DNA of 64,000 nt from Bacillus sp. FJAT-27916 (GCF_001183965.1 NZ_LFZV01000001.1:2061871-2125870); one strand, 5' to 3'; shown: positions 10,836-24,710, numbered from the stretch's first letter. Made by a program: numbers and translations. The notes: a model not told the origin generated them from the letters alone.

Positions 10836-11273
10836 TTACGAATTACGTATTAATTTACCTGAAACGTTTGCCGGTCCGGAAATGGTAATATCCCCTTGTT
10901 CTGGCTGAGTGTTAGATACAAAGACTTGGAAAACATGATGTCCTGCTGATACATTCGTTAGAACCGTTTGAAATTTCGTGGTCATCTCGAGTGGCTCGTC
11001 CTCATTATTAGAAATGGATTCCTGTGTGGTGCTTCCGACCGTCGTACCATCCATTCTGACCTCGATTTGAAGAGTTGGTTGATTAGGTTGGTTGCTTCTT
11101 AATTCCACATTCGTAACATCCCACCCTACAGTTGTCAGCAACTCAACAAAGTTTACTGGATTATCAATAAATAAGCCGAATTCCATAATACGCCGTGGTG
11201 TTGACGTTACAGGAATGGATACACCATTTCTTAAATTTGTTAGTATGCTTCGGTTATAGTTAATCAAAGCCAT
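10836..11273 (-). CDS. Hypothetical beta-rich protein
   Basis: A 145-aa protein starting MALINYNRSILTNLRNG at an ATG 7 nt after GGGGG; the open frame extends 21 codons further upstream without support. It lacks a signal peptide and a membrane segment. The alternating hydrophobic pattern and late motifs (TVLTNVSAGHHVFQVFVSN, ITISGPANVSGKL) suggest an all-beta jelly-roll fold of the kind seen in spore or exosporium surface proteins. That is an inference only. No catalytic residues are recognised. It is monocistronic. Confidence 0.7.
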   Translation of the reverse strand: MALINYNRSILTNLRNGVSIPVTSTPRRIMEFGLFIDNPVNFVELLTTVGWDVTNVELRSNQPNQPTLQIEVRMDGTTVGSTTQESISNNEDEPLEMTTKFQTVLTNVSAGHHVFQVFVSNTQPEQGDITISGPANVSGKLIRNS

Positions 11274-11380
11274 ACTTATTCCCCCTTTCTGATTTATATT
11301 ACATACTATGTGTGCAGAAAGGGATTGCCTGTACAAGCTCCTAAATCAATTTTCAACGTATGAATCATTTTCATTCACAC

Positions 11381-13741: not shown

Positions 13742-13782
13742 AAAAAAAGGTCTCACAAAAGATTTAATCTTTTGCAGGACCT
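13742..13782 (-). terminator. Terminator of GH68 gene A
   Basis: A long stem AGGTC..CAAAAGAT / ATCTTTTG..GACCT. On the minus strand it is followed by TTTTTTTATTT. It lies 50 bases past the stop of the GH68 gene. Confidence 0.85.
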
Positions 13783-13831
13783 CATTAAACGAATCTTTCA
13801 AACGGTCAGCGCTTAAATGCCGTCACATTTC

Positions 13832-15526
13832 TTATTTATTCTTTTTCTTTTTCTTCTTTTTGTTCTTTTTATCACAGTCACATTCCTTGTCCTTTTTATG
13901 ACAATCACATTTCTTTTGATCCTTCTTATTGCCTTTTCCATTGTGTCCGTGATGATGGTCTACATCATCATGATGTTTATGACCATGTCTTCTTCCGTGC
14001 TTGTGATTTCCTTTGCAATCATCATAATCATCATCGTGATCATTCTTGTCTTCCTCACAATCGAGATTACATTTAGGGCTTTCTGATTGCGCCAACATGA
14101 CTAAGCCATATGGCAATTCATTGACCACTGCAGTCGTGGTGCCTGATACCTCTAATTGTATGGTCGGCGCTAACGTACCCCCAAAGTGAGCAAATTGGAA
14201 GCTGGCCGGCAATAAACCTACTTCATCAATGCTGATTCCTTGCAGGTTAAAGTTATCGATGAAGCTTAAGACCGAGAAGTCCGGAAGAACAAGCCAGGAA
14301 TAAGCCTGGTACTCCTCCTGCGGCGGGTTCGCTAAGACAAGTCCGCCATTATTTAAAGGGACATAATTTCCGCGCAGGCCGCTTGCAACAAACCCATATA
14401 ACCCATCCGGTCCAGGTCCGGGAACTAGTCCAGGAGCAAAAGTGAACTTATGGCTATCCGTGAATAAATAGTAATTTCCACCTCTTACAACGATATGAGG
14501 GCGCTCTGTTTGCTGGTTATTGCAGCTTGCTTCAAGGAGCGCAGGGAGAAGCTCCCATTCGGAATACTCATAATTCCGAAGCAGCGCGATTCCGATATTA
14601 CCGGTATAATACCTCGCCTCCTCCGGTACATTAGGACCGCAATCGACATCACTCGCCGTCCCCGCTACATTCCCTTCAAATAATAAATATTCGCATCCAG
14701 TTGCAGGATCCTTGAAGAAGAATGGGTCGCGGAATGCATAAATAATGCCGCCGCTGGATTGCTCTTGTGTTTGATATAGTACACCATCCGGCTCAAGAAT
14801 GATTTCATGAGGAGCAAAGTTCACAAATCTAACCCCATCTAAGTCTGAGATATAATCACTGCTTGATAAGGCAATGCGTTGTTCATATGTGATTTGTGCT
14901 TCTCCTCTTCTTCCTGTTGCCGTGTAGAAATAATAGATACGGCCATCATCATCAAGCATAGCGGACCCAGCCCATTGTCTTGAACCAAAGGCTGTCCCTT
15001 CCTCAAATAAGGCGCCCCCTTGAATCCAATCATAGCCGTTTCGAGAATAGAAATAAGCGATTCGTGCGATATCATGACGCTTACCTGGAAGGACGCTCCT
15101 TGGTGCTGATAAGGCGAATAAGACTCTCCACCCGCCTGGCAGTTCTGCAACAGAACCATCCTTCGTCATCAGCGGCCACATATCCCATATATTTAAATCC
15201 GGCGATATACGAGGGAAAGGTTCATTAATGACACTCGATACATTGGTAGAAGTGATTCTAATTTGTTCCGATTGCTCCCTTGTCCAAGAAGATGGAACGG
15301 CATCTAAGTGTTCTTCTAAACAGCATTCGTAATCTTTAACCGGGTCATAATGACAAAAATCTCTGACTTGCTTTTTTGAAAAACTTCTAAAAGTGACTGG
15401 CATATTACCTGATGAGCCACTCGGAAAATTCCGATTACTGATGTTTCCTGTTGGTTGATTCGTGTTTCCAGGAACAGGGAAATATTGCCTGCACCCCTTC
15501 ATATGATGATGATTATTATTAGTCAT
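13832..15526 (-). CDS. GH68 fructosyltransferase (levansucrase type) with Cys/His/Asp/Lys-rich tail, copy A
   Basis: A 564-aa protein. Residues about 95-480 form a GH68 five-blade propeller: nucleophile D115 in IWDMWPL, WAGSA at 185-189, transition-state Asp D267 in FRDPFFF and acid/base E341 in QQTERPHIV. YLFTDSHK and GGTLAPTIQLE also match. The sequence resembles proteobacterial levansucrases (Zymomonas, Gluconacetobacter) more than B. subtilis SacB. It should split sucrose and build fructan. There is no signal peptide. A Cys-rich leader (KGCRQYFPVPG, ECCLEEH) precedes the domain, and residues 486-564 are a low-complexity tail of Asp, His, Lys and Cys pairs ending in a poly-Lys run. AAGGGG lies about 10 nt before the ATG, with a sigma-K-like promoter upstream. 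Spore-surface localisation is an inference. Confidence 0.92.
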   Translation of the reverse strand: MTNNNHHHMKGCRQYFPVPGNTNQPTGNISNRNFPSGSSGNMPVTFRSFSKKQVRDFCHYDPVKDYECCLEEHLDAVPSSWTREQSEQIRITSTNVSSVINEPFPRISPDLNIWDMWPLMTKDGSVAELPGGWRVLFALSAPRSVLPGKRHDIARIAYFYSRNGYDWIQGGALFEEGTAFGSRQWAGSAMLDDDGRIYYFYTATGRRGEAQITYEQRIALSSSDYISDLDGVRFVNFAPHEIILEPDGVLYQTQEQSSGGIIYAFRDPFFFKDPATGCEYLLFEGNVAGTASDVDCGPNVPEEARYYTGNIGIALLRNYEYSEWELLPALLEASCNNQQTERPHIVVRGGNYYLFTDSHKFTFAPGLVPGPGPDGLYGFVASGLRGNYVPLNNGGLVLANPPQEEYQAYSWLVLPDFSVLSFIDNFNLQGISIDEVGLLPASFQFAHFGGTLAPTIQLEVSGTTTAVVNELPYGLVMLAQSESPKCNLDCEEDKNDHDDDYDDCKGNHKHGRRHGHKHHDDVDHHHGHNGKGNKKDQKKCDCHKKDKECDCDKKNKKKKKKKNK

Positions 15527-15867
15527 TTAAAAACGCCCCTTCGATTTTGTAATACAAGCTGACAATAACCACTTTATGAATGTGCGGAAATATTGTTTCC
15601 GTTATTAACCTAGAATCTATACATATTTTAAAAACTTTATATAATCGCCGCTTAAAAGACGAAATAACAAACAGCCCGCCCGCACAGACAAAGGCATAAA
15701 GCCTATCACTTCCCCCAACCGGATGGTGCATGACCAGAAAAAGCAGTCCTACTGTCCATGCTCCCTTTGAAATAGCTTACATGGAATCGGAAATATCCAC
15801 GATAGGCATATAATGCGCCAAAAGAAAATATGTTGTACAAACTAGCTATAAATATGGAGGGGAATAC
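15527..15867. other. Divergent promoter region between GH68 gene A and the small plus-strand gene
   Basis: About 340 bases with open frames on the minus strand that lack RBSs and overlap each other; I regard them as chance. The left end holds the sigma-K-like promoter of GH68 gene A. No clear promoter was fixed for the plus-strand gene, although a TATAAT occurs at about 15810. Confidence 0.35.
15570..15596 (-). promoter_or_regulatory. Sigma-K-like promoter of GH68 gene A
   Basis: On the minus strand AC (15596-15595), 16 nt, then CATAAAGTG (15578-15570), against the mother-cell sigma-K consensus AC-N16/17-CATAnnnTA. There is one mismatch, in the last base. It ends 44 bases before the start codon. 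The same geometry is found before the paralogue. Confidence 0.45.
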
Positions 15868-16254
15868 ATGAATGATATTCTGATAACGGCAGACATGATG
15901 GCTCGTTACCATTCTCTAAGCAAAGAAAAAAAGGCGATAGAAGATGAAATGAACGTCTTGAAGGAAGTCTTTCATCAATTCTTTGACAAGCAGGCAGGAG
16001 TGAATCAAAAAGGAGAGTTAATAGAAGAAGGGCTTAAGCTGCAACGACAAATTAGAAAGACAGAAAAATATCTTCCAGAGCCCACGGTGCAGAAACTAGA
16101 GGAGCTGAAAATGAAGGATCTCATTAAGGTAATCAAAATCCCTGATGAAGAGAAGATTAACGCCTCCATTAAACTAGGCTTCATGCGAGAAGAAGATTTA
16201 GAAGGGTGTAAGGCTATCTATTATTCAAAGGCCATCTCCATAAAACAAACATAA
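15868..16254 (+). CDS. Hypothetical coiled-coil-like protein
   Basis: A 128-aa charged protein, largely helical. Residues about 15-75 have a heptad-like pattern of Leu/Ile with Lys/Glu (SKEKKAIEDEMNVLKEVF..., EEGLKLQRQIRKTEKYL). GGAGGGG lies 5 nt before the ATG, so this is very likely a real gene. No family is recognised. It points opposite to the two GH68 genes that flank it, so the pair brackets it like a duplication around a resident gene. It has no signal peptide. Confidence 0.75.
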   Translation: MNDILITADMMARYHSLSKEKKAIEDEMNVLKEVFHQFFDKQAGVNQKGELIEEGLKLQRQIRKTEKYLPEPTVQKLEELKMKDLIKVIKIPDEEKINASIKLGFMREEDLEGCKAIYYSKAISIKQT

Positions 16255-16277
16255 TATCTATCAGTCTCTCTATTCAC

Positions 16278-16317
16278 TAAAAAGAGAAAAGGTCTTGCAA
16301 AACAACCCTGCAAGACC
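16278..16317 (-). terminator. Terminator of GH68 gene B
   Basis: A perfect 9-bp stem GGTCTTGCA / TGCAAGACC at 16291-16317. On the minus strand it is followed by TTTTCTCTTTTT. It may also slow the convergent plus-strand gene ending at 16254. Confidence 0.8.
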
Positions 16318-16348
16318 CCTTCCTTCGATTCATTTTGTCAATTATACA

Positions 16349-18037
16349 TTACTTACAGCCGCAGTCTTTCTTTTTCTTTCTCTTATGGTTTTGCTTGTTT
16401 TGGTGTCCGTTGTCTCTGCTATAGTCATCTTCAGGGTGTCTTACATCACAATAGTGTCCGTCATGATGTCCATTTCCGTGATTATGATTATTTCTATGGC
16501 GTCTTCTATGAGAGTGTCGGCCGTCACAATCGTCCTCGTAGTCATCTTCATAATCTTTATCGTCTTCCTCACAATCCAGGTGACATTTAGGACTCTCTGA
16601 TTGAGCAAGCATGACCAATCCATAATCCAATTCATTCACAACCTGTGTTTCTGTACCTGATACCTCCAATTGCACAGTCGGTGCTAATGTCCCTCCAAAG
16701 TGAGCAAATTGGAATCTTGCCGGCAGTAAACCGACCTCATCAATACTAATTCCTTGAAGATTGAAATTATCGATAAAGCTTAGGACTGAAAAGTCAGGAA
16801 GAACAAGCCATGAATAAGCCTGATACTCCTCCTGCGGAGGGTTTGCCAAGACCAATCCTCCATTATTTAATGGAACATAATCCCCTCTTAGCCCGCTCGC
16901 AACAAATCCATATAACCCATCCGGTCCAGGTCCTGGTTCAAGTCCAGGTGCGAAGGTAAACTTGTGACTATCCGTGAATAAATAGTAGTTTCCTCCTCTT
17001 ACAACGATATGCGGACGCTCTGTTTGCTGATTATTGCAGGTTGCCTCAAGCAATGCCGGCAGAAGCTCCCATTCTGAATAATCATCGCTTCGGAGCAGGG
17101 CAATACCAATATTCCCTGTATAGTATCTTGCTTCAGGCGGTACATTAGGCCCGCAGTTAATATCACTTGCTGTTCCGGCGACATTTCCTTCGAATAACAA
17201 GTACTCACAGCCTGTTGCTGGATCTTTAAAGAAGAATGGGTCACGGAAAGCATAAATGATTCCACCGCTGGATTGCTCTTGTGTCTGATATAATACCCCA
17301 TCAGGCTCTAAGATAATTTCATGCGGAGCAAAATTGACTAATCTCACCCCATCCAGGTTGGAAATATAGTCACTGCTCGTTAACGCAATCCGTTGTTCAT
17401 ACGTGATTTGAGCTTCTCCTCTTCTTCCTGTAGCGGTATAGAAATAATAGATTCTGCCATCCTCGTCAAGCATGGCTGAACCAGCCCATTGTCTTGAACC
17501 AAAAGCAGTCCCTTCTGCAAATACATATCCTCCCTGTATCCAATCAGCACCGTTTCGAGAATAGAAGTAGGCGATTCTCGCTATATCATGGCGCTTACCA
17601 GGAAGAACACTCTTCGGAGCAGATAAGGCAAACAATACTCTCCAGCCGCCTGGCAGCTCTGCTACCGACCCATCCTTTGTCATTAATGGCCACATATCCC
17701 ATATAAACAAGTCTGGAGATATCCTAGGAAACGGCTCGTTAATAACATTGGTGACATTAGTAGACGTAATTCTGATTTGCTCCGATTGTTCCCTCGTCCA
17801 CCTAGATGGGACAGCATCAATATGCTCTTCCAAGCAGCAATCAAAATCTTTCACAGGGTCATAGTTACAGAAATTCTTTACTTGCTTCTTTGAGAACCTT
17901 CTAAAGGTTACTGGGGTATTCCCTGATGAACCACTTGGGAAATTACGGTTAATGATTTGACTATCTAGCTGATTCATACTTCCCGGAACCGGAAAGTATT
18001 GTCTGCACCCCTTCATATAGTAGTGCTTGTTAGACAA
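16349..18037 (-). CDS. GH68 fructosyltransferase (levansucrase type) with His/Asp/Arg/Lys-rich tail, copy B
   Basis: The paralogue of copy A, 562 aa from a TTG start at 18037. That start is 9 nt after AGGAG and gives MSNKHYYMKGCRQYF, which aligns with the copy A N-terminus; the open frame extends 16 codons further without support. The catalytic triad is D114 (IWDMWPL), D266 (FRDPFFF) and E340 (QTERPHIV). The catalytic domain is nearly collinear with copy A. The tail has diverged (RHSHRRRHRNNHNHGNGHHD and a terminal KKKKDCGCK) but keeps the same composition. No signal peptide or wall anchor is present. A close sigma-K consensus match lies 44 bases upstream. The predicted reaction is sucrose to fructan plus glucose. 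Confidence 0.92.
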   Translation of the reverse strand: MSNKHYYMKGCRQYFPVPGSMNQLDSQIINRNFPSGSSGNTPVTFRRFSKKQVKNFCNYDPVKDFDCCLEEHIDAVPSRWTREQSEQIRITSTNVTNVINEPFPRISPDLFIWDMWPLMTKDGSVAELPGGWRVLFALSAPKSVLPGKRHDIARIAYFYSRNGADWIQGGYVFAEGTAFGSRQWAGSAMLDEDGRIYYFYTATGRRGEAQITYEQRIALTSSDYISNLDGVRLVNFAPHEIILEPDGVLYQTQEQSSGGIIYAFRDPFFFKDPATGCEYLLFEGNVAGTASDINCGPNVPPEARYYTGNIGIALLRSDDYSEWELLPALLEATCNNQQTERPHIVVRGGNYYLFTDSHKFTFAPGLEPGPGPDGLYGFVASGLRGDYVPLNNGGLVLANPPQEEYQAYSWLVLPDFSVLSFIDNFNLQGISIDEVGLLPARFQFAHFGGTLAPTVQLEVSGTETQVVNELDYGLVMLAQSESPKCHLDCEEDDKDYEDDYEDDCDGRHSHRRRHRNNHNHGNGHHDGHYCDVRHPEDDYSRDNGHQNKQNHKRKKKKDCGCK

Positions 18038-18080: not shown

Positions 18081-18107
18081 TACATTATGAAAAGGCGAAA
18101 GGCTTGT
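18081..18107 (-). promoter_or_regulatory. Sigma-K-like promoter of GH68 gene B
   Basis: On the minus strand AC (18107-18106), exactly 16 nt, then CATAATGTA (18089-18081). This is a perfect match to AC-N16-CATAnnnTA. The -10 ends 43 bases before the TTG start, leaving room for the RBS. Confidence 0.55.
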
Positions 18108-18307
18108 TCATGCTCTAACCTATTAATATTTTCGATTTACCGATAATTAATGCATTTGTACTAGCAAATCGAAAAAAATAATAGATTCCTATCTCTTATC
18201 GGCCGCTGCCGTTACGTTTGGGAAGCCTATTATTTGTTTCTAACTCTGAATCTGGCGTTCAGATAAACACGCATTTCAGCTTGCTCCCCTTCCGCCTTGC
18301 TTTATGA

Positions 18308-21592: not shown

Positions 21593-22888
21593 ATGGAAGA
21601 AACTTTATATTTAATGAACAGCCTCTGGATTATGATTTCTGCAATTTTAGTTATTTTGATGATTGGAGGCTTTATCCTGCTGGAGACAGGCTCCACTCGA
21701 ATGAAGAATGCCGGGCATATCGCCGGCAAGACCATTCTGACATTCGGTATCTCCTCCATTGTCTTCTGGGCAGTTGGATACGGATTAATCTTTGGGGATG
21801 GCGGCGGACTAAGCAAGTTTATCGGTCTATCTGACTTCTTCTATTCCGGTGCGGAGGCTGAAGGTGCCGCCTATAATGGATCTGTATTCTTTGTATTCCA
21901 AACAGCGTTTGCTGGAATTGCCATGACAATCGCTTTCGGCGGATTCGCTGAAAGAGCGAAGATGGGCGTTTACCTCGTATTCGCCGTTTTATTCGCCGTA
22001 TTGGTTTACCCGCCAATCGCTCATTGGATTTGGGGCGGCGGCTGGCTCGCTGAACACGGTAAACAAGATTTCGCCGGTTCAACTGTCGTTCACTTAACTG
22101 GCGCTATGGCAGCCCTTGCTGCAACCATTCTACTGAAACCACGGATTGGCAAATTCAATAAAGACGGCTCTGCCAATAATCTATATGGTCATAACCAAGT
22201 GTATACGGCACTTAGTGTATTGCTTTTATGGGTTGGCTGGTTTGGCTTCAATGCCGGCAGCACAGTCGCAGTCGATGCCGGATTCTTCGGATTTGTCGCA
22301 TTGAACACGAACCTTGCCGCTGCAGCTGGAACGGTTGCCGCGATGATGATATCCTGGATTGTTCTTGGAAAGGCTGATGTATCCATGATGCTTAATGGTG
22401 CCTTAGCTGGTCTCGTTGCTATCACGGCTTCGTGTGCATTCGTTGATACATGGGGTGCTCTTGTCATCGGATTTGTCGCTGGTATTCTCGTATTCTACAG
22501 CATTCGTTTCTTTGAAGCCCGTAAGATTGATGATCCGATTTATGCCCTTTCCGTTCACGGAGCAGCCGGAATCTGGGGTACCTTATCCACTGGTTTCTTC
22601 GCTACAACTGAACTAGCTTCTGTCGGAAAGCCGGGATTGTTCTACGGCGGCGGTTTCGAACAATTAGGCGTTCAAGCATTAGGTGTAGCTGTTTGCGGCG
22701 CTTTCGCCTTCATCGTCTCCTACATTCTGTTATACATCATGAAATCTGTCATGGGAGGCCTTCGTGTGACAGAAGAAGAAGAAATCATGGGTCTTGATAT
22801 AAGCGAACACGGGGTTTATGGATACCCGGAACAGCTTAAATCAGACACCGTCATCACACCATCTGAGAAATCAACCTCTATTGTCTAG
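21593..22888 (+). CDS. amtB: Ammonium transporter AmtB (NrgA)
   Basis: A 431-aa Amt/Rh channel with 11 membrane segments. The twin pore histidines are in STVVHLTGAMAALAA and LSVHGAAGIWGTLSTG; the Amt signature is present (FAGIAMTIAFGGFAERAK, FGFNAGSTVAVDAG). It moves ammonium/ammonia inward when nitrogen is scarce. Upstream is a TnrA box at an activating distance. A PII gene (glnK/nrgB) normally follows in Bacillus but is absent here; a DUF294 nucleotidyltransferase gene follows instead. GAAGGTGAGG precedes the ATG. Confidence 0.96.
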   Translation: MEETLYLMNSLWIMISAILVILMIGGFILLETGSTRMKNAGHIAGKTILTFGISSIVFWAVGYGLIFGDGGGLSKFIGLSDFFYSGAEAEGAAYNGSVFFVFQTAFAGIAMTIAFGGFAERAKMGVYLVFAVLFAVLVYPPIAHWIWGGGWLAEHGKQDFAGSTVVHLTGAMAALAATILLKPRIGKFNKDGSANNLYGHNQVYTALSVLLLWVGWFGFNAGSTVAVDAGFFGFVALNTNLAAAAGTVAAMMISWIVLGKADVSMMLNGALAGLVAITASCAFVDTWGALVIGFVAGILVFYSIRFFEARKIDDPIYALSVHGAAGIWGTLSTGFFATTELASVGKPGLFYGGGFEQLGVQALGVAVCGAFAFIVSYILLYIMKSVMGGLRVTEEEEIMGLDISEHGVYGYPEQLKSDTVITPSEKSTSIV

Positions 22889-22937
22889 ACAAACAACGAG
22901 TATCCTATAGCAGCTTTCCAATGCTGACTTTCGCATC

Positions 22938-22967
22938 CCCCTTGGATTTGAGTTCTCATCCAAGGGG
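22938..22967 (+). other. Hairpin between amtB and the nucleotidyltransferase gene
   Basis: A 10-bp perfect stem CCCCTTGGAT / ATCCAAGGGG with a 10-nt loop lacks a T-tract. It could be a weak attenuator or an mRNA-protecting hairpin between amtB and the downstream pair. Confidence 0.55.
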
Positions 22968-22990
22968 TTATGCCTGTTAAGGAGGGTTCT

Positions 22991-23983
22991 ATGTCCGCTG
23001 TTACCAATCATTATTTAGATATACGCAGCTACCGGGATCAACGAATAGGGGAGCTTCCCCTCACTTCTGCTGTATTAAATGAACGCCATGACGATATCAT
23101 ACTGCGTACGATTCATAAATCAATGGAGCTTCATTCCTCTATCTATGGTCCCCCTCCCTCACCCTTTTGCTTCTTTTTGATGGGGAGTGCGGGTCGGAAG
23201 GAACAAGGTGTTTGGAGCGACCAAGACCACGGCATCATTTATGATAGCTCTTCCGATGAGACAAAGCTGTACTTCGTTTCTCTGGGTGAGGAAATTTCAG
23301 CTGGACTGGCGGTAACCGGCTATAAGCTATGTGACGGCAAGGTCATGGCAAGCAATCCTTTTTGGTGCCGCTCGAGGAAAGAATGGATGGAACAGGCGGA
23401 AGAATGGACAAATGATCAATCATGGGAATCTATTCGTCATCTTTTAACCTTTCTCGATGGGCGGTGCCTCATTGGGGAAGATGCCTACCTTATGGATGTC
23501 AAATCAGCCGCATACCACTTTATTCATCATAAAAGGTTAATCAGCCGGATGATGGAAAACACGATGCATGTCAAAAAAGCCGTCAATATGCTCGGCCAAT
23601 TCCTTGTCGAGACACATGGGGCCTATTCCGGTCTTTTAAATATTAAGGAAACAGGGTTATTCCCTTATATTAATGCTGGACGCATTCTGGCCATATCAGA
23701 AAATCTTATGGAAACCTCCACTGCAATGCGTCTAAAGACACTCCCCTCCTCCATCCTATCTGAGGGAAGAAAGAAGTCTATCAGCGAGCAATTTATCAGA
23801 CTGCAGGATTACCGTATTCAATTTGGGAATCACAAAGATTATGAATCTGGCCATTATCTATTTATTGACCGCTTAACGAAGGCAGAAAGGAAAGAATTAA
23901 AGGAACTCATTAAGGATGGACAACTGTTGAATGAATATGTACGCAAATTTGCAGAAAGGAAGGAGTACGATGGGGATGAATGA
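22991..23983 (+). CDS. DUF294 GlnD-like nucleotidyltransferase
   Basis: A 330-aa protein starting MSAVTNHYLD at ATG 22991, 4 nt after AAGGAGGG. Residues about 60-85 hold the DUF294 nucleotidyltransferase core: GSAGRKEQG (Gly65-Ser66) and the metal-binding pair D77 and D79 in WSDQDHG. The C-terminal half (from about 175) is the DUF294_C helical region (SRMMENTMHVKKAVNMLGQF). This fold is that of the GlnD uridylyltransferase; elsewhere the domain is usually fused to CBS domains, which are missing here. The target is unknown. It overlaps the exonuclease gene by 14 bases, so the two are probably translated together. Confidence 0.85.
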   Translation: MSAVTNHYLDIRSYRDQRIGELPLTSAVLNERHDDIILRTIHKSMELHSSIYGPPPSPFCFFLMGSAGRKEQGVWSDQDHGIIYDSSSDETKLYFVSLGEEISAGLAVTGYKLCDGKVMASNPFWCRSRKEWMEQAEEWTNDQSWESIRHLLTFLDGRCLIGEDAYLMDVKSAAYHFIHHKRLISRMMENTMHVKKAVNMLGQFLVETHGAYSGLLNIKETGLFPYINAGRILAISENLMETSTAMRLKTLPSSILSEGRKKSISEQFIRLQDYRIQFGNHKDYESGHYLFIDRLTKAERKELKELIKDGQLLNEYVRKFAERKEYDGDE

Positions 23984-24710
23984 TTTTATTCAATTCTTCC
24001 GAGGGATGGGCGGAAAGATCAGCTCAAATGTCTTGGCCGGCATGCAAGGACAGCCATCCGCACAAAGCATCTCCTTCCTTCGGCAGCTTGAAAAGGAGGT
24101 TCGTCAAAAGGATGATCTATCCTGTCCTCTAAAGGATTTAGAAGTCGTCGTCTTTGATATCGAAACAACCGGGTTTCATCCGGATAAAGGAGATCAAATC
24201 CTATCCATCGGTGCTGTAAAAATGAAAGGCGCAGCTTTTTGCGAGGAGGACACCTTTTATTCCTTAATCAAGAATGATGGCATCCTTTCCACTGAAATCC
24301 GTGCTTTAACCAATATTACCGATGAGCAGCTGCAGGATGCTCCTGAAGCTCACGAGGTTTTAATGCAATTCTTTCAATTTATTTCATCGAGGATTTTGAT
24401 TGCCCACCATTCCAAGCATGAAATGGCGTTTATGCGAAAGATCACTTGGAATCTCATGAAAAAAAGGTTTCAGCATCGAATGATTGACACCTCCTTTCTG
24501 ACCAATCTGTTGACCCCAGGACCGCAAACAATACGTACATTGGATCAACTATGCGAGGAATGCGGGATTGAGATAAAGAACCGGCATCATGCCCTTGGAG
24601 ATGCCCTCATGACAGGGTCTATATGGGCTTATTATTTGCAGAAGGCTATCGATGAGGGATATAAAAATCTAGGTGATGTGTACAGCGAGCTTGCCAAGAA
24701 AAGAGGATGA
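23970..24710 (+). CDS. DnaQ-like 3'-5' exonuclease
   Basis: A 246-aa DEDD exonuclease. Motif I is VVFDIETTGFHPDKGDQI (Asp63, Glu65), motif II is LIAHHSKHEMAFM and motif III is NRHHALGDALMT, with the His-x4-Asp of the DEDDh group. It should degrade single-stranded DNA or RNA ends. The ~50-residue N-terminal extension is specific to this stand-alone type. GGAAGGAG lies 4 nt before the ATG at 23970; a second ATG at 23976 is possible. In other bacteria the DUF294 and exonuclease genes also travel together, so a shared pathway is likely though undefined. Confidence 0.88.
   Translation: MGMNDFIQFFRGMGGKISSNVLAGMQGQPSAQSISFLRQLEKEVRQKDDLSCPLKDLEVVVFDIETTGFHPDKGDQILSIGAVKMKGAAFCEEDTFYSLIKNDGILSTEIRALTNITDEQLQDAPEAHEVLMQFFQFISSRILIAHHSKHEMAFMRKITWNLMKKRFQHRMIDTSFLTNLLTPGPQTIRTLDQLCEECGIEIKNRHHALGDALMTGSIWAYYLQKAIDEGYKNLGDVYSELAKKRG

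Follow-up and report, generated by a model that had tools for sequence, protein, structure and literature searches.

The window analyzed here, a stretch of 64,000 nucleotides from Bacillus sp. FJAT-27916, contains two genes encoding proteins of the GH68 family, hereinafter copies A and B, which are the sole GH68 genes in this 4.15 Mb genome (Table 1). Both proteins score above the curated cut-off of 27 bits for the Pfam profile PF02435 (Glyco_hydro_68) and share an architecture in which the GH68 domain is preceded by a leader of about 75 aa and followed by about 80 aa of low-complexity tail. A previous reading made from the sequence alone (the sequence-only reading) had described two GH68 genes with the triad D115/D267/E341, and this description was confirmed by the profile scores and by the comparison of 77 GH68 sequences, in all of which W114, D115, R266, D267, E341 and R342 are invariant; in the numbering of copy A, D115 corresponds to the nucleophile, D267 to the Asp of the RDP motif and E341 to the acid/base Glu. 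The blocks QTERPHIV, GGTLAPT and YLFTDSHK that it listed were all found, as were the low-complexity charged tails (68–77 % K, R, D, E, H and C) and the Cys-containing leaders. The latter have four Cys in 75–76 aa, and two of these, C58 and C69, are conserved in the eight closest relatives. The lack of a signal peptide likewise held: the maximal 15-aa Kyte–Doolittle mean within the first 70 aa does not exceed 0.49 in the whole group of non-secreted proteins described below.

Table 1. Features of the GH68 gene pair and its surroundings (window positions)
Feature	Coordinates	Strand	Details
GH68 copy A	13832..15526	-	564 aa, ATG start; Pfam PF02435, 294.8 bits
Copy A leader, aa 1-76	15299..15526	-	without signal peptide; 4 Cys
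Copy A GH68 catalytic domain, aa 77-476	14099..15298	-	D115, D267, E341; group-specific C278
Copy A tail, aa 483-564	13832..14080	-	77 % K/R/D/E/H/C; 7 Cys, 12 His
Copy A sigma-K-like site	15570..15597	-	AACA-N15-CATAAAGTG; one mismatch to CATANNNTA
Copy A probable intrinsic terminator	13745..13785	-	hairpin and T run; fold z -4.07
GH68 copy B	16349..18037	-	562 aa, TTG start; Pfam Glyco_hydro_68, 300 bits
Copy B leader, aa 1-75	17813..18037	-	without signal peptide; Cys-containing
Copy B GH68 catalytic domain	16613..17812	-	profile match and catalytic residues
Copy B tail	16349..16594	-	68 % K/R/D/E/H/C; 6 Cys, 12 His
Copy B sigma-K-like site	18081..18108	-	AACA-N15-CATAATGTA; exact match
Copy B intrinsic terminator	16285..16323	-	18-pair stem followed by T run; fold z -4.91
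Gene between the copies	15868..16254	+	128 aa; matches no known family
ORF	10836..11336	-	up to 166 aa; no Pfam or NCBIfam family; looks beta-rich
amtB-DUF294-exonuclease set	21593..24710		

The TTG start codon of copy B aligns with the ATG of copy A and is preceded by AGGAG 9 nt upstream, within a reading frame that is open from position 18085, upstream of the start. Given the hairpin and T run at the 3' end of each copy, and the 128-aa gene that lies between them on the opposite strand, each copy probably forms its own transcription unit. The two proteins are 90 % identical across the leader and domain, with dN of 0.066 and dS of 1.96 (0.048 and 1.74, respectively, for the GH68 domain alone). 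Such a combination of high dS and low dN implies an old duplication, after which both copies evolved under strong purifying selection; with the active-site residues kept and a dN/dS of 0.034, both appear to be catalytically intact. An AlphaFold model built from 8 sequences was poor (mean pLDDT of 42.8) and was excluded from the argument.

Position of the pair within the GH68 family

The best solved relative of the two proteins is the archaeal structure 7bj4 (428 bits), followed by enzymes of the proteobacterial type (215–246 bits) and SacB (about 80 bits). Protein identity is 44–48 % to the haloarchaeal homologs, 36–37 % to those from Pseudomonas, and 35–37 % to proteobacterial levansucrases. 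In a maximum-likelihood tree of 77 GH68 sequences, the 16 SacB-type sequences form a clade with 100/100 support that does not include copies A and B, which instead group with other Bacilli and haloarchaeal GH68 proteins, across from the SacB clade. The two proteins share with the levansucrase SacB the family and identical catalytic residues; they differ from it in belonging outside its clade, in lacking the signal peptide that SacB possesses, and in having His rather than Arg at position 359. Membership in the SacB type was accordingly rejected, the more so because they are also devoid of an N-terminal hydrophobic stretch. When the joining point of the SacB branch was examined with the AU test, its placement beside the group of copies A and B was not rejected (p = 0.30). 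A clade uniting the pair with proteobacterial (Zymomonas/Erwinia) enzymes was rejected (AU test, p = 4.6e-5). Thus, of the earlier proposal that these are Zymomonas-type enzymes rather than SacB, the second part stands, the phylogeny having set SacB apart at 100/100, whereas the Gram-negative affinity has to be abandoned in view of the AU test and the closest match to 7bj4.

The HX(F/H)T motif takes the form HKFT in both copies, and Ser replaces F in 3 of the 14 members of the group. By their grouping and by this motif, copies A and B can be assigned to the 'inulosucrase subfamily' of Bacilli and haloarchaea; the motif occurs in some levansucrases too and does not fix the product. All things considered, the sequences place the pair with the Bacilli GH68 proteins, most of which are Sec-secreted. 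The same wide GH68 group, with the common HX(F/H)T motif, includes the inulosucrase/FOS synthase pair of Salipaludibacillus (Bacillus) agaradhaerens and the haloarchaeal inulosucrases, which have been reported to group with those of halophilic bacilli (PMC8066391). The Bacilli enzymes of the S. agaradhaerens type belong to the secreted class, with about 440 aa, and differ from copies A and B, which have no signal peptide and combine long Cys/His tails, C278, and a promoter of the mother-cell type.

A non-secreted class of GH68 proteins

Searches at the genus, order and class levels and in three families of Bacilli, together with searches of genome contigs, yielded two kinds of non-SacB GH68 proteins in Bacilli, secreted and non-secreted. 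Proteins of the secreted kind are about 440 aa long, carry a Sec-type signal sequence, and are frequently found in tandem arrays of two or three or in double-domain form. Several double-domain proteins from Bacilli (L028, L085, L086, L087) reach approximately 850–1085 aa and possess a signal sequence. The non-secreted kind comprises 14 sequences from seven lineages, so far limited to spore-forming bacteria: two in this genome, two in each of two Psychrobacillus genomes, two in Rummeliibacillus, and the remainder in Sporolactobacillus kofuensis, Terrilactibacillus laevilacticus and four genomes (two genera) of another family. The class is rare and patchy, being found in at least 3 of 261 genomes of the Psychrobacillus family, at least 2 of 26 of the Sporolactobacillus family, and at least 4 of 9 of the third family; these counts are lower bounds because stretches of the genomes are masked with N.

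A hydrophobic N-terminus is present in none of the 14 proteins, whereas each of the 37 secreted relatives from Bacilli included in the tree has one; the maximal hydrophobicity over 15 residues within the first 70 ranges from -0.24 to 0.49 in the non-secreted proteins versus 1.24 to 2.76 in the secreted ones. All leaders contain Cys, and the tails consist of 43–77 % K, R, D, E, H and C; the leaders differ between the two sub-groups of the class. The nearest relatives of the class are the Sec-secreted enzymes of about 440 aa. In the 77-sequence tree, the ten closest members form a clade with 100/100 support, and all 14 form a single clade with modest support (80/53), the case for which is strengthened by C278, common to all 14 members and found in 0 of the 63 other GH68 proteins. 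Furthermore, non-secreted and Sec-secreted GH68 proteins coexist in one genome in two cases (G107 and G037), so that the non-secreted proteins constitute a class of their own.

Sigma-K-like promoters

The sequence-only reading had also pointed to sigma-K-like promoters, and these proved to recur in distant orthologs. With the strict pattern defined as AC[AC], 14–16 nt, and CATANNNTA, copy B has an exact site and copy A one that deviates at a single position; the distance to the start codon is 71 nt in either case. A strict site precedes 8 of the 11 first genes of the class (copy B, two from Psychrobacillus, one from Terrilactibacillus and those of the four genomes of the third family), lying 58–82 nt ahead of the start, with a spacer of 15 in all sites except one. 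The sites in Sporolactobacillus and Rummeliibacillus are degenerate and occupy the same register as the remaining ones. No strict site precedes the second gene of a tandem pair, which fits an operon. Exact sites were thus found in 5 of the 7 lineages, where sequences within one genus do not count as independent. The expectation from dinucleotide shuffles of the same upstream DNA is about 0.5 % (0.2–0.8 %), and the strict pattern is present in 22 of 4722 segments. It is absent upstream of the 46 secreted or SacB-type GH68 genes (0/46) and upstream of the other ORFs in the window (0/78). Genome-wide, the strict pattern shows no enrichment (13 occurrences versus 14 in the control), so the promoter case rests on position and recurrence. 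One of these 13 lies ahead of a PrkA-like kinase gene (L115, G000:C1:3330098-3330125); prkA is a known mother-cell gene. Sigma-E and sigma-K have a common -10 element, and AC at -35 marks sigma-K (PMC3789822). Both factors act in the mother cell, and accordingly the compartment can be assigned more safely than the exact sigma factor. As judged by these sites, the genes appear to possess the mother-cell sigma-E/K promoter expected of a coat or exosporium enzyme.

Genomic surroundings

Neither a known coat gene nor genes for sucrose transport or utilization adjoin the pair in this genome, and none of its other proteins was found to carry the leader. Elsewhere in the class, the G186 genome contains two genes for endospore appendages (Enas, PF13157; L070:18504-19427) 8 kb from its non-secreted GH68 gene and a Pel-like polysaccharide cluster (PelG) less than 10 kb from it. 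The GH68 gene of Terrilactibacillus has a gene for a CwlC-like amidase and a glycosyltransferase cluster as neighbors, and that of Sporolactobacillus is immediately preceded by a nucleotide-sugar and glycosyltransferase cluster. These three neighborhoods can be taken as hints in favor of a role in the spore.

The amtB-DUF294-exonuclease set found near the pair here also lies close to the GH68 pair of Psychrobacillus (L006:9982-13005), which suggests either an old shared site or transfer together with the flanks. The sister species G002 has a 66 % homolog of the 128-aa gene (L103:17145-17531) with no GH68 gene at the locus, and is the only sister species shown to lack the pair there. An apparent absence of the pair from another sister, G001, was dropped as evidence of a recent gain: the corresponding region (L102:12002-19001) is seven kb of N. 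Carriage of close relatives by phages or plasmids was also rejected, as the searches gave no phage match, no viral contig, and plasmid matches below 60 % identity.

A putative fructan-making enzyme of the spore surface

A GH68 protein without a signal peptide, encoded downstream of recurring sigma-K-like promoters, is best read as a spore-surface enzyme, a reading for which seven lineages, and not a single locus, appear to provide the backing. We assign a probability of roughly 0.6 to the hypothesis that the mother cell produces the protein, that it is incorporated into the spore surface or attached to it, and that it acts once it encounters sucrose. The earlier suggestion of a mother-cell fructan enzyme on the spore surface is thus retained on the strength of the promoters and the missing signal peptide, without its Gram-negative component.

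Expression in the mother cell, well supported by the promoters, would occur late in sporulation, under sigma-K and perhaps also sigma-E. Since the spore develops within the mother cell, a signal peptide would be unnecessary for an enzyme that presumably ends up in the coat. Anchoring and cross-linking within the coat or exosporium may be the task of the leader and the Cys/His/Lys-rich tail, and the enzyme would become exposed once the mother cell lyses. Sucrose encountered by the spore, such as that of plants, would be the putative substrate, which the enzyme would split to form fructan or fructo-oligosaccharides at the surface of the spore.

The promoter evidence fits equally well a mother-cell product that stays outside the coat, as a soluble or inclusion-body enzyme freed on lysis, for which the parasporal crystals of oxalate decarboxylase in Bacillus pumilus 15.1 provide a precedent (PMC5812249). 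The conserved leaders and Cys/His/Lys tails suggest, without proving, cross-linking at the surface, and we regard a location outside the coat as improbable. Proteobacterial levansucrases are exported without a signal peptide, and GH68 proteins of these bacteria that lack a cleaved one are known. The missing signal peptide alone therefore proves little, and the argument is carried by the promoter and by the contrast with the secreted relatives from Bacilli. A vegetative enzyme exported in the proteobacterial manner would be at odds with both, given the N-terminal hydrophobic stretch in 37/37 of these relatives and promoters of the mother-cell type, and is quite unlikely. There is a similarly slim chance that the protein is a structural component of the coat that keeps the GH68 fold with catalysis unimportant: the extra Cys and the long tails would suit such a role, whereas the invariance of the catalytic residues in 14/14 members and the domain dN of 0.048 against dS of 1.74 speak against it. 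An enzyme that stays in the cytoplasm and uses imported sucrose or stored fructan would need no signal peptide, but the sporulation-type promoter, the coat-like tails, and the lack of sucrose transport and utilization genes beside the pair make it highly improbable.

The spore-surface enzyme envisaged here has precedents in kind among coat enzymes such as the oxalate decarboxylase OxdD, which, as cited in PMC5812249, is produced under sigma-K and becomes part of the B. subtilis coat (Costa 2004). As far as that account goes, OxdD is an active enzyme that is under sigma-K control and built into the coat, properties that copies A and B may share; it has another fold and substrate, and its location in the coat is demonstrated, whereas that of the GH68 proteins is predicted. 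In Clostridioides difficile, the coat chitinase/peroxiredoxin CotE is likewise a spore-carried glycoside hydrolase under sigma-K (PMC3789822). It differs in that it hydrolyses chitin, makes no polymer and belongs to an unrelated family. We found no report of a spore-borne GH68 protein in open-access papers.

Known coat enzymes mostly degrade or oxidize small molecules or cell-wall material. GH68 enzymes draw on the energy of the sucrose bond, and because of this the building of a polymer without metabolism is chemically possible. Somewhat more tentatively, with odds that we put a little below even, the class might represent an undescribed spore-borne GH68 subfamily through which a dormant spore wraps itself in fructan without germination, cofactor or energy supply. 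If so, a metabolically silent spore on the surface of a plant or gut would be able to produce a capsule or glue for itself, and the leader and tail would constitute a natural, already evolved system for the display of enzymes on spores.
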